From contig NZ_CP129672.1 in the NCBI RefSeq assembly GCF_030505195.1, forward strand, positions 3,010,501 to 3,074,500: DNA of 64,000 nucleotides, in the 5' to 3' direction. Made by a program: the position numbers and the translations under genes. How positions within the stretch are numbered: the stretch's first letter is position 1; each line of letters begins with the position of its first letter. Under the pieces are notes generated by a model. It was not told the origin of the DNA, did no database searches, and saw nothing but the letters and a program-made list of their open reading frames with translations. This DNA is from Comamonas testosteroni. GTDB taxonomy: Bacteria > Pseudomonadota > Gammaproteobacteria > Burkholderiales > Burkholderiaceae_C. This document shows, in pieces, positions 2,865-25,927 of the stretch.

Positions 2865-2877
2865 GGCGGATGAAGGT

Positions 2878-4099: not shown

Positions 4100-4191
4100 G
4101 GTGAATTCACAATGAAATAAAAGGCCCGAACCCGGTTGGCGCGCATGTTGCATGTGCTGCGCATCTCAGTGATTTTGATGGTTCGAGCAAG

Positions 4192-4728: not shown

Positions 4729-6455
<1,727 letters not shown>

Positions 6456-6478
6456 TGAGGAATCTCCGATTCAGGTAT

Positions 6479-7150
6479 TCAGCGCAGGGACTGCTGCTGG
6501 GCTGCCGGTGGCAGGGCTGCGGGGCTTGTGACGAGCAGGTCGCGCAAGGTGCCCAGCGCCAGGGCCAGCAACAGTGCGGCGCAGCAGCGGTAGGTAAAAC
6601 GGCTCCAGTGCGCAGCAGCGCGGCGGAAAAGCCGGTCCACCAAGGCTGCGCAGACAAAGCACCAGAGCAGGGATGAAGTCATGAATCCCGCGAAGAACAG
6701 CCCGTAATCGCCAGCGCTGGGCTGGGTCACTCCCACCGCCCCGAGGGCGCTGCCCATGGCGGCCCAGTAAGCAAGGTTCTGCGGGTTGCTCAGCGACAGG
6801 GCCATGCCGCGGCGCAGGGCCTGCTTCTGCGTGGCGGCGGCGGCGGTTGAGGCATCGAGCCGGTGTTCGGTGCGCGCTGCCTGCCAGCTGTCCCAGGACA
6901 GCCAGAGCAGGTAGGCGGCGCCCGCCAGGCCAACCGGCCAGCGCAAGGCGTCGATCTGCATGACCAGACCAATGCCGGCCAGGCCCAGCAAGGCCCAGCT
7001 CGCGTCGCCCACCAGGGAGCCCAGCTGTACCGCCAGCGCGGGGCGATAGCCGCCGCGCACACCTTGGCGCACGGTCTCTGCAAACACCGCGCCGGGCGCA
7101 GCATTGAACACCAGGCCCAGCACGAAAGCAGAAGCAAACAGCATCAGCAT
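6479..7150 (-). CDS. LysE/RhtB family transporter
   Basis: A 223-residue membrane protein with about six hydrophobic segments and the LysE-family N terminus (FASAFVLGLVFNAAPGAVFAETVRQGVRGGYRPALAVQLGS, with the PG-A-F-E--RQG-R-G pattern). The family exports basic or other amino acids and small amines. It is in line between ureB and ureC, 23 bases from ureC and 6 bases from ureB, so it is clearly co-transcribed. Export of an amino acid or amine made in excess when urea nitrogen is assimilated is a guess; a role in metal or urea handling has not been shown for this family. Confidence 0.9.
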   Translation of the reverse strand: MLMLFASAFVLGLVFNAAPGAVFAETVRQGVRGGYRPALAVQLGSLVGDASWALLGLAGIGLVMQIDALRWPVGLAGAAYLLWLSWDSWQAARTEHRLDASTAAAATQKQALRRGMALSLSNPQNLAYWAAMGSALGAVGVTQPSAGDYGLFFAGFMTSSLLWCFVCAALVDRLFRRAAAHWSRFTYRCCAALLLALALGTLRDLLVTSPAALPPAAQQQSLR

Positions 7151-7156
7151 GACCGG

Positions 7157-7480
7157 TCAGTCCCTGGCAACTGCGGGCAATGGACCCTGGAGCAGACCGC
7201 GAAAACCATAGATCTGGCGGTCGCCGCCGATCTCGACCAGCTCCACCGTACGCTGCTGGCCCGGCTCGAAGCGCACGGCCATGCCGCTGGCAATATTCAG
7301 GCGCATGCCGTGGGCGGCGGCGCGGTCGAAATCCAGGCCGGCATTGGTTTCGGCGAAGTGGTAGTGCGAGCCGACCTGAATCGGCCGGTCGCTGGCATTT
7401 TTCACCACCAGCGTGAGCGTGCGGCGGCCGGGGTTGAGTGCATGGCTGCCCTCGTCAAGAATCAGTTCACCGGGGATCAT
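7157..7480 (-). CDS. ureB: Urease subunit beta UreB
   Basis: UreB is the structural beta subunit that packs against UreC in the (UreABC)3 assembly. The 107-residue sequence matches the family over its whole length: [62 protein letters not shown] and [13 protein letters not shown]. The start at 7480 is standard. It lies between the hupE-like nickel permease and the LysE-like gene. Confidence 0.97.
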
Positions 7481-7534
7481 CTATCGTCTCCTTGCGCTAG
7501 AGCCCTGTGCTGGGCCGTGCCGGGGTGTTGCATA

Positions 7535-8152
7535 TCACGCCAGTTTCGTCAGCATGAAAGCGCCGAGCGCGGCGGTGGCAGCTCCGCCGAGCCTGGCAGT
7601 CCATTGGTGGCGCTGCATGACGGCATGACCGAGCACCATGCCGGCGATATGCAGTGAGGCCGAGCCCAGCGCAATGCCCACCAGCGCGCCGACGGCAGCC
7701 AGGCCGCTGTCTCCGGCCAGCTCAAAGCCGTGCGCTGCGCCGTGGAAGAAGGCAAACACCGCAGCCAGTGCGGCGGCAGCGGCCCAGGGCATTTTTTGCT
7801 GGACCAGCACCAGCAGGCCCAGCACCAGCACGGATGCGGCAATCATGGGCTCCACGCCCGGCACCCACAGGCCGGCAAAGCCGGCCACGGCGCCCGCCAC
7901 CAGCAGGGCCACAAAGGCCGCTGGTGCACGCCAGGCCGTGCGCAACTCGGGCAGGGTCAGCGCGCTCCAGGCGCCTACGGCCAGCATGGCGGCCAGATGG
8001 TCTGCTCCGGTAAACGGGTGGGCAAAGGCATGAACCAGGCTGTCGAGAAAGTGGTGATGGCCGCCTGCATCGGTGCCCATATGAGCGAGGGCGGACAGGG
8101 GCAGTGCAGTCGCTGCAGCGGTTGTGGTGGCAAGGAGCTTATTGAATTTCAT
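7535..8152 (-). CDS. HupE/UreJ family nickel permease
   Basis: A 205-residue inner-membrane protein of the HupE/UreJ family, secondary nickel transporters found in hydrogenase and urease operons. It starts with a cleavable-looking signal (LLATTTAAATALPLSALA, then HMGTDAGGHHHF) and has the family metal motif HPFTGADHLAAM. About six membrane segments follow, with histidines in FFHGAAHGFE, VLGHAVMQRHQ and the N-terminal HHHF. Position between ureA and ureB argues for supplying nickel to this urease. The start is the Met at 8152, which lies within a dispersed-repeat copy. Confidence 0.92.
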   Translation of the reverse strand: MKFNKLLATTTAAATALPLSALAHMGTDAGGHHHFLDSLVHAFAHPFTGADHLAAMLAVGAWSALTLPELRTAWRAPAAFVALLVAGAVAGFAGLWVPGVEPMIAASVLVLGLLVLVQQKMPWAAAAALAAVFAFFHGAAHGFELAGDSGLAAVGALVGIALGSASLHIAGMVLGHAVMQRHQWTARLGGAATAALGAFMLTKLA

Positions 8153-8200
8153 AGCTGTCTGCGCTTGATGGATAAGGGTTTGATGGCTGAAAGGCTTGAA
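8148..8200 (+). repeat. Dispersed intergenic repeat, family 2 (AGCTGCTTGCGCTT type)
   Basis: Contains ATAGCTGTCTGCGCTTGATG followed by GATAAGGGTTTGATGGC, matching copies near 21806, 25884, 37970 and 42096. It lies between ureA and hupE and covers the hupE start region. Confidence 0.6.
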
Positions 8201-8216
8201 GTCTCTGGATGCCGCT

Positions 8217-8519
8217 TCAGGCGATGGGCTCATGCACGGTGACCAGCTTGGTGCCATCGGGGAAGGTGGCCTCGATCTGGATGTCGGGAATCATCTCGGG
8301 GATGCCCTCCATCACATCGGCGCGGGTCAACACGCTACGGCCTTCGCTCATGAGCTGGGCCACGGTCCTGCCATCGCGCGCGCCCTCCATCACAAAGGCG
8401 CTGATCAACGCCACGGCCTCGGGGTAGTTGAGCTTGAGGCCGCGGGCCATGCGCCGCTCGGCCAGCAGGGCCGCGGTGAAGATCAGCAGCTTGTCTTTTT
8501 CGCGCGGTGTCAGTTCCAT
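8217..8519 (-). CDS. ureA: Urease subunit gamma UreA
   Basis: UreA is the small structural subunit of urease. The 100-residue protein matches the family throughout: [63 protein letters not shown] and [26 protein letters not shown]. The start at 8519 is the conserved [10 protein letters not shown]; the 10 residues upstream in frame are not family-like. It is the first gene of the minus-strand urease operon, and a sigma-54 promoter lies about 70 bases upstream. ureD, which usually comes just before ureA, is absent here. Confidence 0.97.
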
Positions 8520-8598
8520 CTTCTTCCATCCCTCAGTCGGCGCGCGCATCCGGCAGGGCTGAATGAACGCGATGAGTCAGTGTCATGCCCCTTTATGT

Positions 8599-11671: not shown

Positions 11672-12301
11672 ATGACCGATTCCACGCCTGTTGTCCGCCG
11701 CACCCGAGAGCAGATTCTGCAAGCCATCCGCGAGGCGGCGATTGCGGAGTTCAGCAGCCATGGCTTCAAGGGGGCATCCACCCAGGCGATCGCGGAAAGA
11801 GCGGGTCTGACCAAGCCCCAGCTGCATTACTACATCGAGAGCAAACAGGCCTTGTATGACGAGCTGCTCTATGCCTTGCTGGAGGCCTGGTCGGCGGCAT
11901 TTGCGTTCGATCCGGCACTCGACGATCCGGCGCAGATCATCGGCAACTATGTGCGGCGCAAGCTGGACTATGCGCTGGACAATCCGGCCCTGTCACGCAT
12001 CTTCACCAACGAGGTGCTGGGTGGCGGCTTGCGTCTGAACCAATACTGGCCTGTCGCGCTGAGTTCCACGGCGCAGAAGGTGGATCTGATCAACGCCTGG
12101 ATCGCGCAGGGCCGCATACGCAGCCTCGATGCGCGCGTGCTGCTGATGCAGATCTGGGGCATGACCCAGCACTATGCGGACTATGCAGTGCAGGCCAGGG
12201 TCATGCTGGAGTGCGCCGACGACCAGCCGCTGGATCGCGAGCATATCGCCCGGGAGCTCACCACTTCCGTGCTGCTGAGCTGCGGTCTGGCACCAATTTG
12301 A
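11672..12301 (+). CDS. TetR family regulator, RutR-like
   Basis: A 209-residue regulator with an N-terminal HTH (ILQAIREAAIAEFSSHGFKG, ASTQAIAERAGLTKPQLHYY, IESKQALY) and a C-terminal domain resembling RutR: LDNPALSRIFTNEVLGGG and LLMQIWGMTQHYADYAVQ, where RutR has a closely similar IWASTQHYADFA segment. RutR senses uracil or thymine and controls the E. coli rut operon. The gene lies just upstream of an operon with deaminase, RidA and hydrolase genes, supporting a pyrimidine-like ligand. I start at MTDSTPVV (11672); an ATG at 11624 overlapping the DUF4198 stop is possible. The RutR similarity is from recalled motifs, not an alignment. Confidence 0.82.
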   Translation: MTDSTPVVRRTREQILQAIREAAIAEFSSHGFKGASTQAIAERAGLTKPQLHYYIESKQALYDELLYALLEAWSAAFAFDPALDDPAQIIGNYVRRKLDYALDNPALSRIFTNEVLGGGLRLNQYWPVALSSTAQKVDLINAWIAQGRIRSLDARVLLMQIWGMTQHYADYAVQARVMLECADDQPLDREHIARELTTSVLLSCGLAPI

Positions 12302-12309
12302 AGACGGTC

Positions 12310-12326
12310 TGCGCAAGCCTGGTGCA
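12310..12326. promoter_or_regulatory. NtrC-like site upstream of the ferredoxin operon
   Basis: TGCGCAAGCCTGGTGCA has a perfect right half and two mismatches in the left half against TGCACY-N4-TGGTGCA. It is 42 bases upstream of the -24 element. Confidence 0.6.
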
Positions 12327-12367
12327 GATGGCAGGGGCGGCAGGCCGGTAGCTCTCTCTGGCGTGTT

Positions 12368-12384
12368 TTGGCACACCGTTTGCT
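12368..12384 (+). promoter_or_regulatory. Sigma-54 (-24/-12) promoter of the ferredoxin-deaminase operon
   Basis: TTGGCACACCGTTTGCT matches YTGGCAC-N5-TTGCW with exact spacing. The predicted start is near 12395, 26 bases before the ferredoxin ATG. Downstream, GACCAGTCGATCAAATCGGATGGTC spans the predicted start: TTTGACCAGTCGATCAAA and GACCA with TGGTC form imperfect inverted repeats that could be the TetR operator. Confidence 0.75.
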
Positions 12385-12420
12385 TAGATTTGACCAGTCG
12401 ATCAAATCGGATGGTCAATC

Positions 12421-12723
12421 ATGCCAAACACTGCCCCGGATACTCTGGAAACGCCCGTAGAACAAGGCTTTGAGCTGGTATTGCTGCGTCAGGGATTGCG
12501 CTTGCCGGTGGAGCCTGCAGAGCGCATCACCGATGTGCTGCAACTGGCCGGTGTGGCCATAGAGACGGTGTGTGAGCAAGGCATTTGCGGCACTTGCGTC
12601 ACGCGCTGGACGGCTGGCGATCCAGAACACCATGACCGCTGCCTGACCGCCGAGGAGCGCAGCACGCATGTGGCTTTGTGCTGCGCACGCAATCGCGGCG
12701 CGACGCTGACCCTGGATCTTTGA
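12421..12723 (+). CDS. Stand-alone plant-type [2Fe-2S] ferredoxin
   Basis: A 100-residue ferredoxin that would carry single electrons to an oxygenase or oxidoreductase. Cluster ligands are the cysteines of CEQGICGTCVTRW (CX4CX2C) and the later CC in HVALCCARNRG. The sequence resembles the C-terminal domain of phthalate-dioxygenase/vanillate-demethylase reductases (GICGTCVTRWTAGDPEHHD, CLTAEERSTHVALCC), but here the FMN and NAD domains are absent. It is the first gene of a sigma-54 operon, followed 9 bases later by a flavodoxin-fold oxidoreductase that may be its reductase. No oxygenase component is encoded in the operon. Confidence 0.9.
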   Translation: MPNTAPDTLETPVEQGFELVLLRQGLRLPVEPAERITDVLQLAGVAIETVCEQGICGTCVTRWTAGDPEHHDRCLTAEERSTHVALCCARNRGATLTLDL

Positions 12724-12732
12724 AGGGCTGTC

Positions 12733-13320
12733 ATGCGAGTGCTTGTGATCTTCTCCCATCCTGTGGAAACCAGCTATCAGGCCGCATTGCATGCCGAGGT
12801 GGTGCAGCAGTTGCGCGGCGCCGGGCATGAGGTCGATGACTGCGACCTGTACGCGGAAGGATTCAATCCCGTGATGTCCCGCGAGGAACGCCTGGGCTAT
12901 CACGAGGTGCCGCACAACCGGCTACCGGTGCAGCGCTATGTGGACCGTCTGCTGTGGGCCGAGGCCGTGGTCTTTTGCTTCCCGACCTGGTGCTTTGGCC
13001 TGCCGGCCATGCTCAAGGGGTTCTTCGACCGCGTGCTGATGCCCGGGGTGGCCTTCGACATCAGCGATCCGCAGAACGTCAAACCGGCGCTGACCCATCT
13101 CAAGCGCATTGCGGCGGTGGTGACTTACGGGCGTCCGCGCTGGACCGCGCTTTTCATGGGCGACCCACCGCGCAAATGCATCACGCGCTATCTGCGCATC
13201 CTCACGGGCGGCAAGGCGCGTATCGACTATCACGCCTGCTACCACATGAACGTGGCCACGCCATCTCGGCTGCAGTCCTTCAAGGCCCATGTCGGCCGGG
13301 CCATGCGCCGCTTTGCCTAG
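12733..13320 (+). CDS. NAD(P)H dehydrogenase (quinone)-like flavodoxin-fold protein
   Basis: A 195-residue protein of the NQO1/MdaB/KefF flavodoxin-like family. The N terminus MRVLVIFSHPVETSYQAALH contains the FMN/FAD phosphate loop. AEAVVFCFPTWCFGLPAMLKGFFDRVLMPGVAF is the hallmark FP-WW-G-PA-LKG--DRV segment, here with WCFGL in place of the usual WWYSM. It would reduce a quinone, a flavin or the adjacent ferredoxin using NAD(P)H in the cytosol. It lies between the ferredoxin and the amidohydrolase in one operon. Confidence 0.88.
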   Translation: MRVLVIFSHPVETSYQAALHAEVVQQLRGAGHEVDDCDLYAEGFNPVMSREERLGYHEVPHNRLPVQRYVDRLLWAEAVVFCFPTWCFGLPAMLKGFFDRVLMPGVAFDISDPQNVKPALTHLKRIAAVVTYGRPRWTALFMGDPPRKCITRYLRILTGGKARIDYHACYHMNVATPSRLQSFKAHVGRAMRRFA

Positions 13321-13330
13321 GAGAGCCTCC

Positions 13331-14626
13331 ATGTCCTCACATCTGACACTCTGCAATGCACGGCTGCCGCGCTGGTTGCTCGCGGCCCTGGGACAGCGCA
13401 GCGAGATGCTGCTGTCGCGCCTGGAGATCGCCAACGGGCGCATTGCGGCCATCGGGGCAGAAACTCCAGGCCTGCCGCGCAGCTTCGGCTCCCAGGTCTG
13501 GGATCTGCAAGGAGCGCTGGTGCTGCCGACCATGGTGGATGCGCATCTGCATCTGGACAAGGCGTTCACACTGGAGCGCATGGGAGCGGTGAAGCCGGGC
13601 CTGCTGGCCGCGATAGAGGCCATGATGGTGGACAAGCAGAACTGGACGGCGGCCGATGTGCGCCGCCGTGCGGGCCAGGGCCTGCAATGGGCCTATGAAG
13701 CCGGTGTTTCGCATGCACGCAGTCATTGCGACTGGTGGGAGCCGGACTCGGTGCCCGTGGCCTGGGAAGTGCTGCGCGAGCTGGCGCAGGAATGGGCCGG
13801 GCGCGTGCTGCTCGAGCGCGTCAGCCTGATTCCCCTGCATCTGTATGAGGAACGCGGCATGGCGATGCGCCTGGCCAAGCAGGTGGCGCTCAGTGGCGCG
13901 GGAGCCTTGCTCGGCGGCTTTGTCCATTCCACCAACTGGAGTCCGCAGGCCTTGCGCAATCTGCTTGAGGCCGCGCAGCAGCACGGCCTGGACGTGGACC
14001 TGCATGTGGATGAGGAGCTCAACCCCGCAGCCCAGGGACTGGCCACCACGGCCGCGCTGCTCAAGGAGCTGCGCTTCGAAGCACGTGTGGTCTGCGGCCA
14101 TACCTGCGCGCTGGCGGCGCAACCGCTGGAGCAGGCGCTGCGCACGCTGGATGCCGTGGCCAGCACTCCCATCACCATGGTCAGCCTGCCGGTGACGAAC
14201 CTGCTGCTGCAGGACGCGCAAACCGGTATCACGCCGCGCCAGCGAGGCCTGACGCTGCTCAAGGAGGCCAGGGCGCGCGGCATACCGCTGATGATCTCCA
14301 GCGACAACGTGCAGGACCCTTTCTGTCCGCTGGGCAGTTTCGATCCGCTGGAGGCGCTGACCACCGGCGTGGCGGCAGCGCAGCTGACTTCGGCCTTTGA
14401 CGAGTGGAGCGACAGCGTCTGTCGCCGCGACTGGCTGGGTCATGGTGTCGGCCGCCTGCCGCTGCAGCCTGGCGCGACAGCCGATCTGGTGATCCTTCCT
14501 CAGTCCAGCGTCAGCGGCTTTCCATCCCGCAGCCAGCGCCGCGTGGTGATGCGCGAGGGGCGCGTCAGCAACGGCGAGCCGCTGGCTGCCTGGTTCAGCC
14601 CCTGCATTGAACGGAGCGTTGCATGA
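13331..14626 (+). CDS. Cytosine-deaminase-like amidohydrolase
   Basis: A 431-residue metal-dependent hydrolase of the cytosine deaminase/AtzC group. The metal and catalytic set is complete: HLHLDKAF (two metal His), HVDEEL (His and the proton-shuttling Glu), VCGHTCALA (His), and SSDNVQDPFCPLGSFDPLEA (Asp), in the CodA-like order. The enzyme should deaminate or hydrolyse an amino-substituted N-heterocycle in the cytosol. The start is MSSHLTLCNARL at 13331. It overlaps the next gene by 4 bases (ATGA). Similarity is to the class; cytosine itself is unlikely to be the only option because the operon adds redox proteins, a RidA protein and a creatininase. Confidence 0.88.
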   Translation: MSSHLTLCNARLPRWLLAALGQRSEMLLSRLEIANGRIAAIGAETPGLPRSFGSQVWDLQGALVLPTMVDAHLHLDKAFTLERMGAVKPGLLAAIEAMMVDKQNWTAADVRRRAGQGLQWAYEAGVSHARSHCDWWEPDSVPVAWEVLRELAQEWAGRVLLERVSLIPLHLYEERGMAMRLAKQVALSGAGALLGGFVHSTNWSPQALRNLLEAAQQHGLDVDLHVDEELNPAAQGLATTAALLKELRFEARVVCGHTCALAAQPLEQALRTLDAVASTPITMVSLPVTNLLLQDAQTGITPRQRGLTLLKEARARGIPLMISSDNVQDPFCPLGSFDPLEALTTGVAAAQLTSAFDEWSDSVCRRDWLGHGVGRLPLQPGATADLVILPQSSVSGFPSRSQRRVVMREGRVSNGEPLAAWFSPCIERSVA

Positions 14627-15084
14627 GCACAGATACCACAGGCATTGCCCAGCCCCTGGCTCGTTATGCGCCCTGGCGGCGGGCGGGCGATCTGGTGTTC
14701 CTGTCGGGCGTGATCGCCGTGGACCCGGGCGCCAATCGCATCGTGCGCGGCTATGCCGACATTCCTGCTGAAGCGGCAGCGCTGATCGGGCGTACCGGTG
14801 AGTTCAGCACCGACATCAAGGAGGGCCCCATCCTGGCGCAGAGCTGGTGGGTGCTGGACCGCATCCGCCAGACGGTGGAGGCCGCCGGCGGCCAGATGTC
14901 GGATGTCTTCAAGCTGGTGCAGTACTTCCGCAATCTGGACCAGTTCCCGCAGTACAGCCGTGTGCGCAAGCTGTTTTTTCCCGGCGAATCACCGGCTTCC
15001 ACGGTGGTCGAGGTGGCGGGCATGCTGCCCACGCCGGACATTCTGATCGAGGTGGAGGCCACGGCCTATCTGCCCTTGCGTTGA
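14623..15084 (+). CDS. RidA/YjgF/UK114 family protein
   Basis: A 153-residue RidA-superfamily protein, a trimeric fold known to hydrolyse reactive enamines or imines. In the rut pathway the family member RutC acts on 3-aminoacrylate. Family features are ARYAPWRRAGDLVFLSGVIAVDP, a central helix pair (WWVLDRIRQTVEAAGGQMSDVFKLVQYFRN) and PASTVVEVAGMLPTPDILIEVEATA. The last segment has Val where the catalytic RidA arginine of the R-P-RAVGVA-L motif usually sits (ASTVVEVAGM), so it may belong to a subgroup without classical imine deaminase activity. It overlaps the deaminase gene by ATGA. Confidence 0.9.
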   Translation: MSTDTTGIAQPLARYAPWRRAGDLVFLSGVIAVDPGANRIVRGYADIPAEAAALIGRTGEFSTDIKEGPILAQSWWVLDRIRQTVEAAGGQMSDVFKLVQYFRNLDQFPQYSRVRKLFFPGESPASTVVEVAGMLPTPDILIEVEATAYLPLR

Positions 15085-15112
15085 CCCATTCACCACTCAC
15101 CCCGGAGAACCC

Positions 15113-15970
15113 ATGCTGCACGGATACACCCCTGCCGAGCGCTTTCTGCCCTATCTGAGCTGGACCGAGGTTGCGGCCCTGCCGGACAAGGCCAATACCG
15201 TGATCGTGCTGCCTGTGGGCGCCATGGAGCAGCATGGTCCGCATCTGCCCTGCTCCGTGGACGCAACGATTGCGGCGGGCGTGGTCGGCGCCGCCATGGC
15301 GCAGCTGCCCGCCGCCGTGCCTGCATTCGCCATGGCCCCCATCGTCTATGGCAAGTCGGAGGAGCATCTGCACTTTCCCGGCACGGTGACCTTGAGCGGC
15401 GAAACCCTGCTGGCCACGATCAATGAAATCGGCGAGTCGGTGTATCGCGCAGGCTTTCGCAAGCTGCTGTTCGTCAACGGCCACGGCGGCCAGCCCCAGG
15501 TGCTGGAGATCGCGGCGCGCGAGCTGCGCCTGCGCCATGGCGACTTCATCGTGGTGCCGAGCTTTACCTGGCGCGTGCCGCATGTCGCGGGCCAATATCT
15601 GTCGAACCTGGAGAAAAAGCTGGCCATGCATGCAGGCCATGCCGAGACCGCGCTGATGCTGGCGCTGGCGCCGCAGACGGTGCACATGGAGCGGGCCGTC
15701 ATCAACTACCCGCCCGTGTTCCCCTCCAGCCTGCTGTCGCCCGATGGCCGTCCCGCCTGCGCCTGGACCGCACGGGACTTCGGACCCAGCGGCGTGATCG
15801 GTGATCCGACACCCGCCACCGCCGAACAGGGGCAGGAGATCCTGCAATCCCTGGCCCGGAGCTGGGCCGCCGCCATTGCCGAGCTGCACGAGCTGCAATG
15901 GGCCAGCCGCGACGAAGCCACCTGGGGTCGAGCCCAGCATCAGGGGCATGTGGAGCCTGCCCTGGCCTGA
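15113..15970 (+). CDS. Creatininase family amidohydrolase
   Basis: A 285-residue creatininase-family hydrolase. Metal ligands are visible in LPVGAMEQHGPHLPCSVDA (E, H and D), VNGHGGQPQ (H) and HAGHAETALML (E), so the binuclear site looks intact. The family opens cyclic or formyl amides such as creatinine and formamidopyrimidines (the archaeal ArfB group). It sits 28 bases after the RidA gene and just before an ABC transporter, so it probably acts on a ring-derived amide from the imported compound. Identity as a true creatininase is unlikely since no creatinase or sarcosine oxidase follows. Confidence 0.88.
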   Translation: MLHGYTPAERFLPYLSWTEVAALPDKANTVIVLPVGAMEQHGPHLPCSVDATIAAGVVGAAMAQLPAAVPAFAMAPIVYGKSEEHLHFPGTVTLSGETLLATINEIGESVYRAGFRKLLFVNGHGGQPQVLEIAARELRLRHGDFIVVPSFTWRVPHVAGQYLSNLEKKLAMHAGHAETALMLALAPQTVHMERAVINYPPVFPSSLLSPDGRPACAWTARDFGPSGVIGDPTPATAEQGQEILQSLARSWAAAIAELHELQWASRDEATWGRAQHQGHVEPALA

Positions 15971-16017
15971 TGCCCTCTCTCGCCTTGCCTGTTTCAAACC
16001 TTCGGAGATCCGCCACG

Positions 16018-17007
16018 ATGAAGACTGCCAAACTCCTCAAACCCCTGACCTGCGCGGCCATGCTGGCCTGTGGTCTGAGCGGCCTCGGCCACGCCGAGGA
16101 AAAATTCGTCTACATGACCAACTGGTATGCCCAGGCCGAGCATGGTGGCTTCTACCAGGCCGTGGCCACAGGGCTGTACAAAAAGCATGGTCTGGAAGTC
16201 AGCATCAAGATGGGCGGCCCCCAGGTCAATATCACGCAGATGATGGCTGCCGGTCAGGCCGACTGTGTCATGGGCTCCAGCGATCTGCAGATGGTGCAGA
16301 TGCGCGAGGGCGGCGTTCCCGTGACCACGGTGGCCGCGGTGTTCCAGAAGGATCCACAGGTGCTGATCGCCCATGAGGACGTGAAGCGGTTCGAGGACCT
16401 CAAGGGCAAGACCATTTTGATCGCCGCCTCCGCGCAGCGCGGCTACTGGCCCTGGCTCAAGGCCAAATATGGTTTCACCGACTCCCAGACCCGGCCCTAC
16501 ACCTTCAATATCCAGCCGTTTCTGGTGGACAAGAATTCGGCCCAGCAAGGCTATCTGACGTCCGAGCCCTTTGCGATTCAGAAGGCTGGCGTCAAGGCGA
16601 ACACGCTGATGTTCAGCGATCAGGGCTTCCCGGCCTATGCCACGACCATCTCCTGCATGGACAAGACGGTCAAGGAGCGCAGCAAGGCGGTGCAGGCCTT
16701 TGTCACCGCCTCCATGGAAGGCTGGAAGAGCTATCTGGCCGATCCCGCGCCGGCCAATGCCCTGATCAAGAAAGACAACCCCAACATGACCGACGAACAG
16801 CTGGCCTACAGCGTGGGCAAGCTCAAGGAAATGAATATGGTCGCCGGCGGCGATGCCGCCAGGCTGGGCATCGGCGTGATGACCGATGCGCGGGTCAAGG
16901 CCAGCTATGACTTCCTGGTCAGCGCCAAGCTGATCGATCCGGCCAAGGTCAGGCAGGCCGATGCCTACAACCTGAGCCTGATTCAAAACATCAAGGTCCT
17001 GCCCTGA
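16018..17007 (+). CDS. ABC transporter substrate-binding protein (NMT1/THI5/SsuA type)
   Basis: A 329-residue periplasmic binding protein. It has a signal peptide (LLKPLTCAAMLACGLSGLGHA) and the NMT1-like start YMTNWYAQAEHGGFYQAVATGLYKKHGLEV, with GGPQVNITQMMAAGQADCVMG. Members bind pyrimidine precursors of thiamine, riboflavin, sulfonates, nitrate or aromatic acids. Because the operon encodes a cytosine-deaminase-like enzyme and has a RutR-like regulator, a pyrimidine-like or other N-heterocyclic ligand is the leading guess. ATG at 16018 has CGGAG about 10 bases upstream. It is the first of three transporter genes. Confidence 0.88.
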   Translation: MKTAKLLKPLTCAAMLACGLSGLGHAEEKFVYMTNWYAQAEHGGFYQAVATGLYKKHGLEVSIKMGGPQVNITQMMAAGQADCVMGSSDLQMVQMREGGVPVTTVAAVFQKDPQVLIAHEDVKRFEDLKGKTILIAASAQRGYWPWLKAKYGFTDSQTRPYTFNIQPFLVDKNSAQQGYLTSEPFAIQKAGVKANTLMFSDQGFPAYATTISCMDKTVKERSKAVQAFVTASMEGWKSYLADPAPANALIKKDNPNMTDEQLAYSVGKLKEMNMVAGGDAARLGIGVMTDARVKASYDFLVSAKLIDPAKVRQADAYNLSLIQNIKVLP

Positions 17008-17041
17008 TGGCATGGGCTGGCAGCGACAGCGAAAGGTGACT

Positions 17042-17854
17042 ATGAGCGGCTCTGAAATTCCCGCAGCAGCAATTCCCGCAGTGGAGGTGTTGTCTGCAGA
17101 GAAAACCTATCCCGGCGGCACGCAGGCGTTGCTGCCCGTCAATCTACGCATCGAAGAGGGTGAGTTCGTGACCTTGCTCGGCCCTTCGGGCTGCGGCAAG
17201 AGCACCTTGCTCAAGATGGTGGCGGGTCTGCTGGAGCCCAGCGACGGCAGATTGCTGCTGTGGCGAAAGCCGGTGCCGCAGCTGCATGCCGGCGGCAAGA
17301 AGATGGCGTTTGTCTTTCAGCAGCCCACGCTCATGCCCTGGTCCAGCGTGCATGCCAATGTGCGGCTGCCGCTGGATCTGGCTGGCGTGCCGCGCGCCGA
17401 GGCCGATGCGCGCGTCGCGGAGGCACTGCAACTGGTGGGCCTGGCACGCTTTGCCAAAGCCCTGCCGCGCGAATTGTCCGGGGGCATGCAGATGCGGGTC
17501 TCGATTGCCCGCGGCCTGGTCACCGAGCCCGATCTGCTGCTGATGGACGAGCCCTTCGGCGCGCTCGACGAGATCACGCGTCACAAGCTGGACGCGGAGT
17601 TGCTGGAGCTTTGGAGCAAGAAGAAGCTGACGGTGATCTTTGTCACCCACTCCCTCCACGAGGCCGTCTTTCTGTCCAGCCGGGTGGTGATGATGGCGGC
17701 CAGGCCGGGGCGTGTGGTGGAGGAGTTTCGCATCGATGCCCCCTATCCGCGGCCTGCCGACTTCATGCTCGGCCCCGAGTTCGCCCGCCATGCCCAGCAG
17801 TTGCAATCGAGCCTGCTGCGCGCCAGTGCCATGGTGGAGGAGAGTCTGTCATGA
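17042..17854 (+). CDS. ABC transporter ATP-binding protein (SsuB/TauB type)
   Basis: A 270-residue nucleotide-binding subunit. Walker A is LLGPSGCGKSTLLKMVAG, the Q-loop is FVFQQPTLMPWSSV, the signature is LSGGMQMRVSIARGL, Walker B is LLLMDEPFGALDEITR, and the H-loop is FVTHSLHEAVFLS, the SsuB/TauB/NitD pattern. I start at MSGSEIPAA (17042). The stop overlaps the permease ATG (ATGA at 17851), so the two are translationally coupled. Confidence 0.95.
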   Translation: MSGSEIPAAAIPAVEVLSAEKTYPGGTQALLPVNLRIEEGEFVTLLGPSGCGKSTLLKMVAGLLEPSDGRLLLWRKPVPQLHAGGKKMAFVFQQPTLMPWSSVHANVRLPLDLAGVPRAEADARVAEALQLVGLARFAKALPRELSGGMQMRVSIARGLVTEPDLLLMDEPFGALDEITRHKLDAELLELWSKKKLTVIFVTHSLHEAVFLSSRVVMMAARPGRVVEEFRIDAPYPRPADFMLGPEFARHAQQLQSSLLRASAMVEESLS

Positions 17855-18756
17855 GCGCCTTGCCCGCTTCCATTCCCGATGATGCGGCCAGGGCCGCCGA
17901 CAACAGGTCGGCCGCGACCGGCGCGCGTGTAGTGGCTACCGTCAAGTCCGCCAAGGCGGCCACCCCCTGGCTGCTGCAGCCCAAGGTGCAGCGCGTACTT
18001 TTGCCGGCGCTGGTGGGCCTTGTGCTGCTGCTGCTCTGGCAGGCCCTGGTGAGCGGGCTGGAGTTGCCGCCTTATCTGGTGCCTTCGCCGCTGCTGATGC
18101 TGCAGACCTTAATGACGGACTGGGCTGCACTCGGCCTGTCCCTGTGGGTCACCGTCAAGATCACCTTGCTGGCCTTTGCGCTGGCCACCGTGGCTGGCGT
18201 GCTGATCAGCTTTGTATTCGTGCAGAGCAAGCTGATCGAGATGGCCTTGTTTCCCTATGCCGTGCTGCTGCAGGTGACGCCTATCGTGGCCGTGGCTCCG
18301 CTGATCATCATCTGGGTCAAGGACCCGGTGCTGTCCATGGTGATCTGTGCAGCGCTGGTGGCGCTGTTTCCCATCATCAGCAACACCACGCTGGGCCTGC
18401 GCAGTGTGGAGCCGGATCTGCTGGCCTACTTCAAGCTCAACCGGGCCACGCGGCTGCAGGTGCTGATGCGCTTGCGCATTCCCAGTGCCTTGCCCTATTT
18501 CTTCGGGGGGCTGCGCATCTCCAGCGGCCTGGCACTGATAGGTGCCGTGGTGGCCGAGTTCGTGGCCGGTACCGGCGGGCAGGGGGCGGGTCTTGCCTAC
18601 CAGATCCTGCAAGCGGGTTTTCAGCTCAACATCCCGCGCATGTTCGCTGCGCTGCTGCTGATTTCGCTGACCGGCGTGGCGCTGTTCGTGCTCATGGCCT
18701 GGTGTACACGCCGGGCGCTGGGCGGCTGGCATGCCAGCGAATCCGGTAGCGACTAG
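17851..18756 (+). CDS. ABC transporter permease (SsuC/TauC type)
   Basis: A 301-residue inner-membrane permease. After a soluble N-terminal stretch of about 50 residues come about six hydrophobic segments beginning at VLLPALVGLVLLLLWQALV. The coupling-helix EAA region is visible as AYFKLNRATRLQVLMRLRIPSALPYFFGGLRISSG, ending in the usual G-----A-V-AE-VAG segment (ALIGAVVAEFVAG). It forms an importer with the two genes upstream. The start at 17851 overlaps the ATPase stop. Confidence 0.94.
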   Translation: MSALPASIPDDAARAADNRSAATGARVVATVKSAKAATPWLLQPKVQRVLLPALVGLVLLLLWQALVSGLELPPYLVPSPLLMLQTLMTDWAALGLSLWVTVKITLLAFALATVAGVLISFVFVQSKLIEMALFPYAVLLQVTPIVAVAPLIIIWVKDPVLSMVICAALVALFPIISNTTLGLRSVEPDLLAYFKLNRATRLQVLMRLRIPSALPYFFGGLRISSGLALIGAVVAEFVAGTGGQGAGLAYQILQAGFQLNIPRMFAALLLISLTGVALFVLMAWCTRRALGGWHASESGSD

Positions 18757-18847
18757 CGCTTCACCCCTTTGCTCATTTCTGCTCCCGTCATGCCCGCACT
18801 GCGCGGCATATGGGCCGACTCATGCCTTGCATTTTTGCGCCACGACC

Positions 18848-20236
18848 ATGAACACCAATCCGATTGCCGAGAACAGCAGCCAGCTGGCCAGCGCCTTGCC
18901 TGCGCTGGACTGGATCACCGACTCCCTGAAAGTGTCGCGCCTGTCCCAGGATTTTTCCTGGTTCAGCCCGGTTCTGAAGCAGGCCCTGCAGGGCAAGCGC
19001 GGCGACATTGCGGTGCGTCCGCGCACCGAGGCCGAGATTGCCCAGATCGTGGCCCATTGCGCGCGCCGGGGCGTGCCCATCACGCTGCGCGGCAGCGGCA
19101 CCGGCAATTACGGCCAGAGCACGCCGCTTCATGGCGGCGTGATCCTGGATCTGAGCGGCTATAACAGCCTGTGCTGGGTACGCGGCAGCGTGGGCCGGGC
19201 ACAGGCCGGCATACGCCTGGCGGACTTCGACCAGCGCGCGCGCGAGCAGGGGCAGGAGTTGCGCTGGCTGCCGTCCACCTACCGCAGCGCCACCCTGGGC
19301 GGCCTGTTTGGCGGTGGTTTCGGCGGCGCGGGCTCCATCACCTACGGGCCGCTCGCCTCTGCGGGCAATGTGCTGGCTGCGCGCGTGATGACGGTGGAGG
19401 CCGAGCCGCGCATTCTGGAGCTGCGCGGTGCCGACGCCATGCGTCTGCACCATACCTATGGCACGACCGGCATCGTGCTCGAGCTCGAAGTGGCGCTGGC
19501 AGATGCCACGAACTGGACGGAATGCATTGCCACGTTCACGGGTTTTGACCAGGCGCTGGGCTTTGCGCAGCAACTGGGCAATGCACCGGGCATCCGTAAA
19601 AAGGAACTGAGCCTGATGGCGGCTCCGGTGCCGGCCTATTTCACCAGTCTGGCCGAGCATCTGCCCCCGGGCTGCCACGCGGTCATTGCGCTGGTGGCAC
19701 CCGAAGCCGAGGAGGCCATGCAGCTATTGCTGGAGCGCAGCGGCGGCACACTCAGCTACTGCGAGCGCGGGCGCTGGTCTGAGCAGCCGGCTGCGGGCTA
19801 CAAATCGCTGATCGAGTATTGCTGGAACCATACGACCCTGCATGCGCTGAAGCTGGACCGGGAGCTGACCTATCTGCAGACCGGCTACAACCCCGCCAGG
19901 TTTGGCGAGCAGCTCAAGGCCTTGCGCAGCGAGCTCGGTGACGAGGTCCTGTTCCATCTGGAGTTTCTGCGCACCAAGGAGGGACAGTTCAACTGCAGCG
20001 GGCTGGAGCTGGTGCGCTTCAGCTCGGCCGAGCGGCTCAACGCGATCATGGATATCTATCGCAAGCATGGCGTGCAGATCAACAATCCGCATGTCTATGT
20101 GGTGGAAGACGGCAAGGCCAACAACCAGCTCGATCCCGTGCTGTTGCAGACCAAGGCCGATCTCGATCCCCTGAATCTGCTCAATCCCGGAAAGCTTCGC
20201 AGCGCAGCGCTGCCGGCCTGCATTCAGGCCGACTGA
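18848..20236 (+). CDS. FAD-binding oxidoreductase (PCMH/VAO, GlcD-like)
   Basis: A 462-residue flavoprotein of the vanillyl-alcohol-oxidase superfamily. The PCMH FAD-binding domain spans roughly residues 55-230, with VRPRTEAEIAQIVAHCARRGVPITLRGSGTGNYG, GGVILDLSGYN and STYRSATLGGLFGGGFGGAGSITYG. The C-terminal part ends in LDPLNLLNPGKL, the family's usual terminal motif. It would oxidise a C-O or C-N bond of a small substrate. I start at MNTNPIAENS (18848), 91 bases after the permease stop; it is probably the last gene of the sigma-54 operon. Substrate unknown. Confidence 0.87.
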   Translation: MNTNPIAENSSQLASALPALDWITDSLKVSRLSQDFSWFSPVLKQALQGKRGDIAVRPRTEAEIAQIVAHCARRGVPITLRGSGTGNYGQSTPLHGGVILDLSGYNSLCWVRGSVGRAQAGIRLADFDQRAREQGQELRWLPSTYRSATLGGLFGGGFGGAGSITYGPLASAGNVLAARVMTVEAEPRILELRGADAMRLHHTYGTTGIVLELEVALADATNWTECIATFTGFDQALGFAQQLGNAPGIRKKELSLMAAPVPAYFTSLAEHLPPGCHAVIALVAPEAEEAMQLLLERSGGTLSYCERGRWSEQPAAGYKSLIEYCWNHTTLHALKLDRELTYLQTGYNPARFGEQLKALRSELGDEVLFHLEFLRTKEGQFNCSGLELVRFSSAERLNAIMDIYRKHGVQINNPHVYVVEDGKANNQLDPVLLQTKADLDPLNLLNPGKLRSAALPACIQAD

Positions 20237-20486: not shown

Positions 20487-21755
20487 ATGAATCGTCGCGG
20501 AACCCTCACAACACTGGCTGCATCCATGGCTCTGGGCCTGGGATTGACTTCTCAGGTGCTGGCTGCAGACACCATCAAGGTGGGAGTGTTGCACAGCCTC
20601 TCGGGCACCATGGCCATCTCAGAGACCGTGCTCAAGGACACGGTGCTGATGGCCATCGAGGACATCAATGCCAAGGGCGGCGTGATGGGCAAGAAGCTGG
20701 AGCCCGTGGTGGTGGATCCCGCCTCCAACTGGCCGCTGTTTGCCGAAAAGGCCAAGCAGCTGATCACCCAGGACAAGGTGGCCGTGGTCTTCGGCTGCTG
20801 GACCAGCGTGTCGCGCAAATCTGTGCTGCCGGTGTTCGAGCAGAACAACGGCCTGCTGTTCTACCCCGTGCAGTACGAGGGCGAGGAACTCTCCAAGAAC
20901 GTCTTCTACACCGGCGCCGCGCCCAACCAGCAGGCGATTCCCGCTGTCGAGTACCTGATGAGCAAGGAAGGCGGCGGTGCCAAGCGCTTTGTGCTGCTGG
21001 GCACGGACTATGTGTACCCGCGCACCACCAACAAGATTCTGCGTGCCTTCCTCAAGTCCAAGGGTGTCAAGGATTCCGACATCATGGAAACCTACACCCC
21101 CTTCGGCCACAGCGACTACCAGACCATCGTGGCCGATGTGAAGAAGTTCTCCACCGGTGGCAAGACGGCGGTGATCTCCACCATCAACGGCGACTCCAAC
21201 GTGCCCTTCTACAAGGAGCTGGGCAATGCCGGCCTCAAGGCCAAGGATGTACCGGTCGTGGCCTTCAGCGTGGGTGAGGAGGAGCTGCGTGGCGTGGACA
21301 CCAAGCCTCTGGTCGGCCACCTGGCGGCATGGAACTACTTCATGAGCGTGAAGAACCCGACCAACACGGCCTTCATCAAGCAGTGGGGCGACTACGCCAA
21401 GGCCAAGAACATCGCCGGCCACAAGGACAAGCCGCTGACCAACGACCCGATGGAGGCCACCTGGGTCGGCATCCACATGTGGAAGCAGGCCGTGGAGAAA
21501 GCCAAGAGCACGGATACAGACAAGGTGATTGCCGCCATGGCCGGCCAGACCTTTGCCGCACCCAGTGGCTTCACGCTGAAGATGGACGAGAAGAATCACC
21601 ATCTGCACAAGCCCGTGATGGTCGGCGAGATCAAGGCCGACGGCCAGTTCAGCGTGGTCTGGAAGACCAAGGGTCCGGTCAAGGCCCAGCCCTGGAGCCC
21701 GTATATCGAAGGTAACGACAAGAAGAAAGACGAGCCCAACGGCAAGAGCTCCTGA
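20487..21755 (+). CDS. urtA: Urea ABC transporter substrate-binding protein UrtA
   Basis: UrtA is the periplasmic urea receptor of the high-affinity UrtABCDE importer. The 422-residue product has a signal peptide (LTTLAASMALGLGLTSQVLA, cut before ADTIKVG) and the UrtA pattern VGVLHSLSGTMAISET, DPASNWPLFAEKAKQLI, VFGCWTSVSRKSVLPVFE and LLFYPVQYEGEE. It ends in a charged tail rich in K, D and E. ATG at 20487 has GGGAG upstream. It opens the urt operon behind a sigma-54 promoter and two NtrC-like sites. Confidence 0.97.
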   Translation: MNRRGTLTTLAASMALGLGLTSQVLAADTIKVGVLHSLSGTMAISETVLKDTVLMAIEDINAKGGVMGKKLEPVVVDPASNWPLFAEKAKQLITQDKVAVVFGCWTSVSRKSVLPVFEQNNGLLFYPVQYEGEELSKNVFYTGAAPNQQAIPAVEYLMSKEGGGAKRFVLLGTDYVYPRTTNKILRAFLKSKGVKDSDIMETYTPFGHSDYQTIVADVKKFSTGGKTAVISTINGDSNVPFYKELGNAGLKAKDVPVVAFSVGEEELRGVDTKPLVGHLAAWNYFMSVKNPTNTAFIKQWGDYAKAKNIAGHKDKPLTNDPMEATWVGIHMWKQAVEKAKSTDTDKVIAAMAGQTFAAPSGFTLKMDEKNHHLHKPVMVGEIKADGQFSVVWKTKGPVKAQPWSPYIEGNDKKKDEPNGKSS

Positions 21756-21803
21756 TTCGCTCCCTCGGACTGGAGAGGTCTGGTGGGCTCTCCAGTCCTG
21801 AAG

Positions 21804-21856
21804 AGATAGCTGCTTGCCCTTTATTGACAAGGGCTGCAGCGCTAGAAACCTGAAAT
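21804..21856 (+). repeat. Dispersed intergenic repeat, family 2
   Basis: GATAGCTGCTTGCCCTTTAT, then TGACAAGGGCTGCAGCGCTAGA, between urtA and urtB. Same layout as the copies at 8148, 25879, 37965 and 42093. Its end reaches the urtB start. Confidence 0.65.
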
Positions 21857-21860
21857 TCCT

Positions 21861-23474
21861 ATGAACATACTGCGCAAGTCATTGAGGCTGGCATTGGCCG
21901 CCGGGCTGGGCTCGTTGCTGAGCTTTGCCAGTCACGCACTGACGACCGAGCAGGCCTATGCCATGGCTGCGGCAGACGACTCCGAGCAGCGCGTGCTGGC
22001 GATCAATCAGGCCGTGCTGGCGCCGGATGCACAGACCGACGGCGGTCGCCTGTCGGCCTATCTGGGCGCGCTCGCCAACGATGAAGTGCGCGTTTCTCAG
22101 GGCAAGGTCTATGTGATGAGCGGCGACGCGGTCACCGACCCGGTGACCGGTCAGGCCGCCCAACTCCCGGCGGATGCCGAGGAGGTCGTCAGCAACAATT
22201 ACCTGCGCTCGGTCATCGACACGGCGCAGGCCGCGCTGGCGCTGGGCAGCAGCGATGTGCAGGCGCGCCGCAAGGCTGCCGAGCAGCTGGCCTCCGAGCC
22301 TGATGCTGGGCGGCTTCCCCTGATCGAAAAAGCGCTGGCCGCTGAACAGGACGGGCAGGTCAGAGCCCTGCTGGAGCGCAGCCTGGCTGCCAGCCTGCTG
22401 GGCAGCGACGACGTGCAGCAGCGTCTGAAGGCGGTGCAGCAACTGTCGCGCCAGCAGACGCCGGAGACGCAGTTGCTGTTGAACCAGCGCCTGTCCGAAG
22501 AGTCCGATCCCGGCGTGCAAAAAGCCATCAAGGCCGCGCTGGCCAGCATCGCCGAAGGCCTGGCCTGGGGGGACAGACTGGGTGCTGTTTTCAGCGGCAT
22601 CAGCCTGGGCTCGGTGCTGTTGCTGGCGGCGCTGGGTCTGGCCATCACCTACGGCCTGATGGGCGTCATCAACATGGCGCACGGCGAGCTGATCATGATC
22701 GGTGCCTATGCCACCTATCTGGTGCAGGTCGCATTCCAGCGCTGGTTGCCCGAGGCCGTGTTTGGCTGGTATCTGGTGGTGGCGGCTCCCGTGGCTTTTC
22801 TGGCCTCGGCGCTGGTGGGCGCGGTGCTGGAGCGCGGCGTGATCCGCTTCCTCTACGGCCGCCCGCTGGAGACCCTGCTGGCCACCTTCGGCATCAGCCT
22901 GGTGCTGCAGCAAACCGTGCGCAGCCTTTTCGGCGCGCAGAACGTGGGCGTGGAAAACCCCGTCTGGATGAGCGGCGGGATCGCGCTGCTGCCCAATCTC
23001 ACGCTGCCCTACAACCGCATCGCCATCATCGTCTTTGCGTTCGCCGTGCTGGCGGGCGTGGCCTTCATGATCGCCAGAACGCGGCTGGGCCTGTTCGTGC
23101 GCGGCGTGACGCAGAACCGCGCCATGGCTTCCTGTGTGGGCGTCAACACGGCACGCACCGACACCTATGCGTTTGCACTGGGCTCCGGTATCGCCGGTCT
23201 TGCCGGCTGCGCCCTGAGCCAGATCGGCAATGTGGGCCCGGATCTGGGGCAGAACTACATCGTGGACAGCTTCCTGGTGGTGGTGCTGGGCGGTGTGGGG
23301 CAACTGGCGGGCACCGTCTACGCGGCTCTGGGTCTGGGCGTGCTCAGCAAGCTGCTGGAAGGCTGGACCGGCGCCGTGCTGGCCAAGATCGCCGTGCTGC
23401 TGTTCATCGTGGTCTTTATTCAAAAGCGTCCGCAAGGCATCTTTGCCTTGAAGGGCCGCAGTGCGGAAACATGA
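21861..23474 (+). CDS. urtB: Urea ABC transporter permease UrtB
   Basis: UrtB is one of the two membrane subunits of the urea importer and belongs to the LivH branch. The 537-residue protein has a signal-like N terminus and a periplasmic extension of about 230 residues typical of proteobacterial UrtB, here with helical repeats (QARRKAAEQL, QQRLKAVQQLSRQQ). The membrane domain starts near LGAVFSGISLGSVLLLAALGLAITYGLMGVINMAHGELIMIGAYATYLVQ. FIQKRPQGIFALKGR closes the protein. It follows urtA by 105 bases, a gap occupied by a dispersed repeat. Confidence 0.96.
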   Translation: MNILRKSLRLALAAGLGSLLSFASHALTTEQAYAMAAADDSEQRVLAINQAVLAPDAQTDGGRLSAYLGALANDEVRVSQGKVYVMSGDAVTDPVTGQAAQLPADAEEVVSNNYLRSVIDTAQAALALGSSDVQARRKAAEQLASEPDAGRLPLIEKALAAEQDGQVRALLERSLAASLLGSDDVQQRLKAVQQLSRQQTPETQLLLNQRLSEESDPGVQKAIKAALASIAEGLAWGDRLGAVFSGISLGSVLLLAALGLAITYGLMGVINMAHGELIMIGAYATYLVQVAFQRWLPEAVFGWYLVVAAPVAFLASALVGAVLERGVIRFLYGRPLETLLATFGISLVLQQTVRSLFGAQNVGVENPVWMSGGIALLPNLTLPYNRIAIIVFAFAVLAGVAFMIARTRLGLFVRGVTQNRAMASCVGVNTARTDTYAFALGSGIAGLAGCALSQIGNVGPDLGQNYIVDSFLVVVLGGVGQLAGTVYAALGLGVLSKLLEGWTGAVLAKIAVLLFIVVFIQKRPQGIFALKGRSAET

Positions 23475-23600
23475 AACACCCCCTGGGTCGCTTCGCGACC
23501 TCCCCCGCTCTCGCATTGCTGCGCGCTGCGGGCAGGGGACGACACCCTCGCTGCGGGGCGGCCCTTGCTCGGTGTCTCGTACCTGGGCCGCGCCAGCTGC
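23475..23600 (+). repeat. Dispersed intergenic repeat, family 1 (GGGGACGACACCCTCGCTGC type)
   Basis: Contains CCCCCTGGGTCGCTTCGCGAC, GGGGACGACACCCTCGCTGC and GGGGCGGCCCTTGCTCGG. It fills the urtB-urtC gap. Close copies lie at 25721-25850 and 39828-39950, an inverted copy at about 33770-33899, and a diverged copy at 51730-51830. Confidence 0.75.
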
Positions 23601-23639
23601 GCAGGCCATGTGCCTTGCTCGACTTGAGGGAAAACTGAC

Positions 23640-24848
23640 ATGACAACCCAATTCATACCCATCGAACTGCCCAAGCCCGCGCCGCTGCTATCCGCCAAGG
23701 GCTGGACGGCGTTTCTGCTGGCCCTGACCATGGTCTGCGCCGTGGCTCCTGCACTCAATCTGTGGGTCCCCGAGGACAGTGCGCTGCACCTGTCCGACTA
23801 CATGCTGGGCCTGCTGGGCAAGTTCATGTGCTATGCGATCTGCGCGCTGGCGATTGACCTGATCTGGGGCTATACCGGCATCCTGAGCCTGGGCCACGGC
23901 CTGTTCTTCGCGCTGGGCGGCTATGTGATGGGCATGTACCTGATGCGCGAGGCCGCAGGCCCCGATGCCTTGCCCGCCTTCATGGGGTTTCTGGACTGGA
24001 AGGAGCTGCCCTGGCACTGGGCGCTGTCGGGCAGCTTTGCCGCCACCGTGTTGCTGGTGTTCCTGGTGCCGGGCCTGATCGGCGGGCTGTTCGGCTACTT
24101 TGCCTTTCGCTCGCGCATCAAGGGCGTGTATTTCTCCATCATCACCCAGGCCCTGACCTATGCCGCCATGCTGCTGTTCTTTCGCAACGAGACCGGCTTT
24201 GGCGGCAACAACGGCTTCACGGGCTTCAAGACCCTGCTGGGGTTTTCCGTCAACTCGCAAGCCATGCATGTGCTGCTGTTCGCGCTGTCGGGGCTGGCGC
24301 TGCTGGGCTGCTTTCTGTTCTCGCGCTGGCTGATACGAAGCAAGTATGGGCGCGTGCTGCAGGCCGTGCGCGATGCCGAATCGCGCACCATGTTCTGTGG
24401 CTACAACCCGCTGCCCTACAAGCTGTCGATCTGGGTCATCTCGGCCATGATGTGCGGCCTGGCGGGCGCGCTGTATGTGCCCCAGGTGGGCATCATCAAC
24501 CCCAGCGAGATGAGCGTGGGCAATTCCATCGAAATGGCGGTGTGGACGGCCGTGGGCGGACGTGCCTCGCTGGTCGGTCCCATCATCGGCGCGTTTGCCG
24601 TCAACGGCGGCAAGAGCTGGCTCACCGTGGCCGCGCCCGAGTACTGGCTGTATGTGCTGGGTGCGCTGTTCATCGTCGTGACGCTGTTCATGCCGGGCGG
24701 CCTGATTCGCCTGCCGCAGCAGCTTCGCCAGTGGCGTGAGAAGCGCAATGCGCAGACGCAATCCGAGCTGAACCAAGCCGCTGCTGCCCTGGCCCGCAAA
24801 GCCAGCGAACGCGCTGTCGCCGACCCGCTGAAAGGAGCCCGCGCATGA
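23640..24848 (+). CDS. urtC: Urea ABC transporter permease UrtC
   Basis: UrtC is the second membrane subunit of the urea importer (LivM branch). The 402-residue protein has about nine hydrophobic segments and the family motifs IWGYTGILSLGHGLFFALGGYVMGMYLM, GVYFSIITQALTYAAMLLFFRNETGFGGNNGFTGF and GRVLQAVRDAESRTMFCGYNP. A soluble C-terminal tail rich in Q, E and R follows. Its stop overlaps the urtD start (ATGA at 24845), so the two are coupled. Confidence 0.96.
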   Translation: MTTQFIPIELPKPAPLLSAKGWTAFLLALTMVCAVAPALNLWVPEDSALHLSDYMLGLLGKFMCYAICALAIDLIWGYTGILSLGHGLFFALGGYVMGMYLMREAAGPDALPAFMGFLDWKELPWHWALSGSFAATVLLVFLVPGLIGGLFGYFAFRSRIKGVYFSIITQALTYAAMLLFFRNETGFGGNNGFTGFKTLLGFSVNSQAMHVLLFALSGLALLGCFLFSRWLIRSKYGRVLQAVRDAESRTMFCGYNPLPYKLSIWVISAMMCGLAGALYVPQVGIINPSEMSVGNSIEMAVWTAVGGRASLVGPIIGAFAVNGGKSWLTVAAPEYWLYVLGALFIVVTLFMPGGLIRLPQQLRQWREKRNAQTQSELNQAAAALARKASERAVADPLKGARA

Positions 24849-25850: not shown

Positions 25851-25878
25851 TGCGCCATGTTTATCGAAGCGGGCTATT

Positions 25879-25925: not shown

Positions 25926-25927
25926 AA

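Follow-up and report, generated by a model that had tools for sequence, protein, structure and literature searches.

A conserved Comamonas testosteroni operon with a predicted sigma-54 promoter is most likely a nitrogen-scavenging module for pteridine rings

We analysed a 64,000-nucleotide stretch (the window) of the 5.9-Mb Comamonas testosteroni contig NZ_CP129672.1 (positions 3,010,501 to 3,074,500), which holds at 11672..20236 a putative catabolic operon whose ten open reading frames all lie on the + strand. Domains were assigned with Pfam, and family models (TIGR, PRK, NCBIfam) were read against their curated score cut-offs; Pfam agrees with each gene class that an initial annotation, made from the sequence, had predicted in this tight order. 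A TetR-family regulator (11672..12301; TetR_N, with a YcdC-like TetR_C_3 C-terminal region) stands before the sigma-54 promoter and is thus outside the nine promoter-driven genes. These encode a stand-alone 2Fe-2S ferredoxin (12421..12723; Fer2) resembling the C-terminal domain of PDR/VanB reductases, a flavodoxin-fold NAD(P)H oxidoreductase, probably a flavin or pteridine reductase (12733..13320; Flavodoxin_2), a cytosine-deaminase-like amidohydrolase (13331..14626; Amidohydro_3), a RidA-fold protein (14623..15084; Ribonuc_L-PSP), a creatininase-family amidohydrolase (15113..15970; Creatininase), an NMT1/THI5-type periplasmic binding protein (16018..17007; NMT1), an ABC transporter ATPase (17042..17854; ABC_tran) and permease (17851..18756; BPD_transp_1), and a flavoprotein (18848..20236; FAD_binding_4). 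Start and stop overlap at two gene junctions (14623/14626 and 17851/17854). The window proteins are 97-100% identical to those of C. testosteroni ATCC 11996 (locus L002).

The sigma-54 promoter named in the initial annotation is an exact TGGCAC-N5-TTGC match on the + strand (TGGCACACCGTTTGC, 12369..12383), and two more exact matches lie at 8767 and 20419 of the window; each of the three precedes a + strand gene. Six bases separate it from a RutR-type operator found by pattern search, TTGACCA-N15-TGGTCAA (12390..12418, + strand), which lies 2 bases before the ferredoxin ATG at 12421 and, being so close 3' of the promoter, is expected to span the transcription start. The same arrangement recurs in related loci: TGGCA[CT]-N5-TTGC precedes the operon in 77/78 loci (shuffle mean 0.1 per 78), [TC]TGACC-N16-[TCA]GGTCA in 67/78 (0.02 per 78), and the two patterns in this order in 66/78 (0.0), with 250 or 900 bp read per locus and 200 single-base shuffles as control. 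These 78 loci are related and hence not independent cases; deaminase identities ranging from 55 to 97% make simple carry-over of promoter sequence unlikely. The two half-sites are of RutR type but stand 15 bp apart. The regulator itself, which has a TetR counterpart encoded no more than 3 kb ahead of the deaminase gene in 52/80 loci, keeps the RutR-like character first ascribed to it and is matched by a RutR-type operator, but by the curated cut-off it is not RutR (127.8 bits with TIGR03613; cut-off 368). The RutR box is given as a 16-bp palindrome in the available part of its description (PMC10891134).

A scan of genome contigs gave 247 deaminase relatives, of which the best 80 were taken as family loci, and gene presence was counted at >=35% identity both there and in phylum-wide regions. 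The genes for the creatininase-family enzyme, binding protein, ATPase, permease and flavoprotein are each found in all 70 family loci whose sequence extends 6.5 kb or more past the deaminase (70/70), that for RidA in 40/70, while Flavodoxin_2 is present in 73 and the ferredoxin in 28 of the 80. Across the phylum, a flavoprotein profile at E 1e-70 matched 32/398 genomes, the window genome included, and its 36 matches besides the window's own correspond to 35 regions (two matches sharing one region). In the 32 regions outside the window family, homologs are present for the deaminase (26), creatininase (25), RidA (24), Flavodoxin_2 (24) and binding protein (27), and all eight core genes are present in 19. 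Gene calling relied on a Comamonadaceae codon model that performed poorly on loci L105 and L193, so these counts may be underestimates; the class-wide match L105 stands outside them. Gene order and regulators vary, as in Pantoea, Klebsiella, Palleronia and Rhizobium plasmids. The genes thus travel together, in the family loci and in the 19 outside regions, and by sequence comparison the operon is real, conserved and regulated; the linkage and the promoter and operator counts support the original proposal that a sigma-54-driven operon scavenges an N-heterocycle-type compound, to which conservation and a RutR-type operator can be added. An outer-membrane receptor was also considered as a cluster member and rejected: the Pantoea protein named 'TonB-dependent receptor' gives weak porin matches only (OprD 25.5 bits, cut-off 25; Opr 27.6 vs 100), and the TonB gene of the window is therefore not counted in the cluster.

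The amidohydrolase scores 315.3 bits with the cytosine deaminase model PRK07583 (cut-off 403), and is thus not called a cytosine deaminase. The residues of its HxH...H..E...H...D signature (H72, H74, H225, E228, H257 and D325), whose roles we take from CodA, are present in 33/33 aligned deaminases. Its SDNVQD motif has DN where CodA has a DD pair, the second Asp of which, a residue at the substrate, is Asn in 31/33 and Cys in two outgroup-type proteins. In the tree, from which the Variovorax sp. F1 sequence itself is absent, the window deaminase groups with support 0.93 with a Variovorax gene fitting the F1 pterin deaminase (PDA). Model score, motif and tree point to a probable pterin-type deaminase.

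The flavoprotein is a full-length relative of 6v42 (40% identity) with the same fold, as predicted from the alignment; the PDB title of 6v42/6v43 is a flavin oxygenase involved in folate catabolism, and 6v42 falls in a rhizobial-type clade. The RidA-fold protein has Ser at the position of the usual RidA catalytic arginine (which we take to be Arg105 of E. coli RidA) in 69/69 aligned cluster proteins, where PH0854 carries Arg. The creatininase-family protein matches Pfam Creatininase and carries E-H-D, but scores 106.3 with TIGR04448 (cut-off 235) and reads NGHGG in place of NGHYE(N); it is probably an N-acyl or ring amide hydrolase. A comparable creatininase-like formamidase, BrbF, likened here by description only, acts on the amide of a 5-aminopyrimidine, in riboflavin synthesis and not catabolism according to the available part of its account (PMC9478397). 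In the Pantoea and Klebsiella clusters, annotated full PDR/VanB reductases occupy the ferredoxin position.

The operon is flanked on the left by urease genes (UreG, UreF, UreE, UreC, UreB and UreA; 1840..8549, - strand) and on the right by the urea ABC transporter genes urtABCDE (20487..26620, + strand; sigma-54 site 20419-20433 before urtA) and the urease accessory gene UreD (28950..29780, + strand). A UreD-type gene lies downstream of the cluster in 18/90 stretches, one of which (L026) was verified with Pfam, and the R. etli cluster adjoins a urea carboxylase, of which a cut fragment scores 1062 bits (cut-off 1304), as well as an allophanate hydrolase (765; cut-off 511). That two unlike urea routes adjoin the same gene set favours urea as a product. 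Allophanate hydrolase is matched in just 2/35 phylum regions, one at 30%, and general clustering of nitrogen genes could alternatively explain the linkage.

Pterins and folates are produced by nearly all cells, yet to our knowledge natural pteridine-ring opening still largely lacks assigned genes. We consider the operon most likely to be a pteridine-catabolic nitrogen module, probably one that scavenges nitrogen from pteridine rings (those of pterins or lumazines, derived for instance from folate or bacterial pterin cofactors), and relatives across Proteobacteria carry it as a unit. Under nitrogen limitation, sigma-54 would drive the operon, which the TetR protein would keep repressed until it binds a ring compound. 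The ABC system would bring in the pteridine; the amidohydrolase would take off its 2-amino group as ammonia, turning a pterin into a lumazine type; the flavoprotein would oxidise the pyrazine half with electrons from the flavodoxin-fold reductase and ferredoxin; the creatininase-family enzyme would hydrolyse the resulting amide, with the RidA-like protein taking care of a reactive intermediate; and the pyrimidine half would yield ammonia and urea, the latter consumed by the adjacent urease. The order of the steps after deamination is a proposal. Gene set, promoter and linkage to urea use together make a concrete, testable candidate pathway for pteridine-ring opening, in which three proteins may have new functions: the RidA that lacks the arginine, the creatininase-family enzyme with NGHGG, and a flavin oxygenase of the FAD_binding_4 family. 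Of the rings suggested initially, the pyrimidine-like vitamin fragment was near, the evidence pointing to pterin, the folate ring. The accompanying statement that no characterised pathway was known does not hold in full, given the title of 6v42 and a Variovorax pterin deaminase that fits a sister cluster; a literature search, with most subscription journals outside its reach, found no papers on this gene set.

In Variovorax sp. F1, of the same bacterial family as the window, folic acid is degraded via carboxypeptidase G and PDA, an enzyme described as near cytosine deaminases; a gene for a RidA ('endoribonuclease') lies downstream of that for PDA (PMC9513972). The available part of that account ends at deaminated pteroic acid, names no ring-opening genes and asks if bacteria break down pteroic acid and the deaminated product, and by what means (PMC9513972). 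The PDA-fitting Variovorax gene is ~39% identical to the window deaminase and belongs to a separate clade and locus, and in V. paradoxus NBRC 15149 it is accompanied by a full copy of the window gene set. Some relatives of the cluster carry further candidate ring enzymes. Near the cluster at L025 lies a PRK12393 amidohydrolase (617 bits; cut-off 543), with relatives of this type in 5 loci, that matches 2paj, which we take to be isoxanthopterin deaminase, and also scores with the 8-oxoguanine deaminase model, under its cut-off. At L066, where the 2paj relative was recognised by clustering, the flavoprotein gene is followed in line by RidA, a second binding protein, two VanA-type Rieske oxygenases and a PRK12393-type deaminase; phylum region L164 joins Rieske and PRK12393-type deaminase genes to the transporter, and in Klebsiella a 2-oxoglutarate (2OG)-Fe(II) oxygenase and a PRK12393 deaminase (822 bits) face the operon. 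A CDA-type deaminase (PF00383) is encoded in 36/90 stretches.

Several observations weigh against a pteridine substrate. The Variovorax gene was fitted to F1 PDA by length, position and family, not by the F1 sequence, and since Variovorax holds both cluster types, the substrates of the window type and the PDA type should differ. The tested or solved relatives of deaminase and flavoprotein are only ~40% identical, and we know of no enzyme of the window clade with an assay; the function of 6v42 is known from its PDB title alone, the same literature search, within the same reach, having found no paper behind it. With Ser for Arg and NGHGG for NGHYE, neither a standard RidA nor a creatininase activity can be assumed, and the ferredoxin resembles the C-terminal piece of a whole reductase found in other clusters. 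The best small-molecule match of the binding protein, 3ix1, is weak (E 2e-6) and names an aminopyrimidine. The distribution is patchy (flavoprotein profile class-wide at E 1e-90, 2/321 genomes; deaminase profile order-wide at E 1e-100, 2/300; own genome counted in both), and 8/35 phylum regions have fewer than six core genes, three of these eight holding flavoprotein and creatininase only. A 52% deaminase relative lies on pADP-1 (L135, 13947-15278) beside cyanuric acid genes. Finally, the window operon contains no Rieske oxygenase, 2OG oxygenase or isoxanthopterin-type deaminase; elsewhere the window genome has Rieske relatives at <=33% identity, a 2OG-oxygenase/CDA-type deaminase/ABC module ~183 kb from the operon, and a 49% relative of the L025 PRK12393 enzyme beside ABC genes and a xanthine/uracil-type permease. 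Given these modules, the accessory genes may belong to related yet distinct routes, and their position outside the operon leaves a purine-type reading open.

The main rival is a monocyclic pyrimidine pathway (for cytosine, 5-methylcytosine or the thiamin pyrimidine), in which, along the lines of the initial annotation, the amidohydrolase deaminates, redox proteins modify and the creatininase-family enzyme opens the ring. It would account for the RutR-like regulator and operator, the cytosine-deaminase family membership and the weak match to an aminomethyl-pyrimidine binding protein, yet it is unlikely given the loss of CodA's second Asp, the folate-catabolism title of the nearest solved flavoprotein relative and the pterin-deaminase-like neighbours in some relatives. 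A Rut-like chemistry was rejected. The Rut system of E. coli comprises RutR, the RidA-fold RutC and sigma-54-type nitrogen control, and the operon resembles it in its RutR-like regulator, operator half-sites, RidA-fold protein and sigma-54-type nitrogen control; as annotated, however, RutA, RutB and RutG are absent from its ten proteins, the regulator falls under the RutR cut-off, and the missing RidA arginine speaks against the suggested parallel with RutC.

Catabolism of oxidised or substituted purines (8-oxoguanine or guanine-like), with the neighbourhood deaminases and oxygenases acting on bicyclic purines and urea as the end product, is less likely again: the urease linkage, the frequent CDA-type deaminase and the sub-threshold 8-oxoguanine deaminase score would fit, but the CDA-type gene lies outside the window operon, 6v42 is titled for folate, and no xanthine dehydrogenase, urate or allantoin enzymes occur among the ten window proteins. 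We regard a xenobiotic or creatinine-type route (triazines, creatinine) as very improbable despite the creatininase-family member and the pADP-1 homolog, since the former falls below the creatininase cut-off with NGHYEN replaced by NGHGG, no creatinase is found among the ten proteins, and, within the 29 kb shown, the pADP-1 copy lacks the remaining genes of the set. Least credible is sulfonate scavenging, as with many NMT1/SsuA-type transporters: the ABC genes do score weakly with the SsuA and SaoX models, but the binding protein remains well under their cut-offs (25.4 vs 163.5; 35.7 vs 300), and the ten proteins include no desulfonating monooxygenase.

Returning to the pteridine module, candidate genes for side-chain use are linked to some relatives. 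Threonate/3-oxo-tetronate genes directly precede the pterin-deaminase-like gene in 9/9 stretches and 6/6 genomes (five Variovorax), for example in L156 (overlap of 4 bases), L159, L160 and L183. NCBIfam models identify L-threonate dehydrogenase (454 vs 350), 3-oxo-tetronate kinase (628 vs 350) and isomerase (381 vs 325), with the threonate-type decarboxylase just under its cut-off (228 vs 250). Upstream threonate-type genes occur in 8/81 window-type loci, all Acidovorax; those of the window genome lie at 665 kb, unlinked to the operon. A tentative and rather doubtful extension is complete cleavage of the pteridine ring, in which, once the ring is deaminated, the flavin oxygenase would split the pyrazine, leaving C6 on the side chain and joined through an amide to N5 of the pyrimidine, the creatininase-family enzyme would hydrolyse this amide and free the side chain as a carboxylic acid, and the pyrimidine half would go to urea. 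From monapterin or neopterin the acid would be L-threonate or D-erythronate, whose release would explain the threonate genes beside the pterin-deaminase-like gene and upstream of the Acidovorax window-type loci.

Further observations concern the surroundings of the operon and its relatives. In the window, the sigma-54 site at 8767-8781 precedes a gene called at 8856-10877 for a TonB receptor, after which comes DUF4198. The 2OG-oxygenase module of the window genome (L201, G000:C1:3206000-3225000, 7483-13253) encodes the oxygenase, two NMT1-type binding proteins, a CDA-type deaminase, an ATPase and a permease, and some Acidovorax loci have similar genes immediately upstream of the operon. Another 2OG-oxygenase/ABC/deaminase set (L202, G000:C1:1206000-1225000, 7163-15784) has genes for molybdenum and 2Fe-2S subunits of xanthine-dehydrogenase type (Pfam) behind it, and is possibly a further N-heterocycle route. 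On the atrazine plasmid pADP-1, the deaminase relative is the last gene of a BMP-type ABC operon that faces those for cyanuric acid. On a Xenophilus contig (L075, 182-4088, - strand), a third, divergent trio of deaminase, binding protein and flavoprotein genes stands back to back with a window-type cluster.

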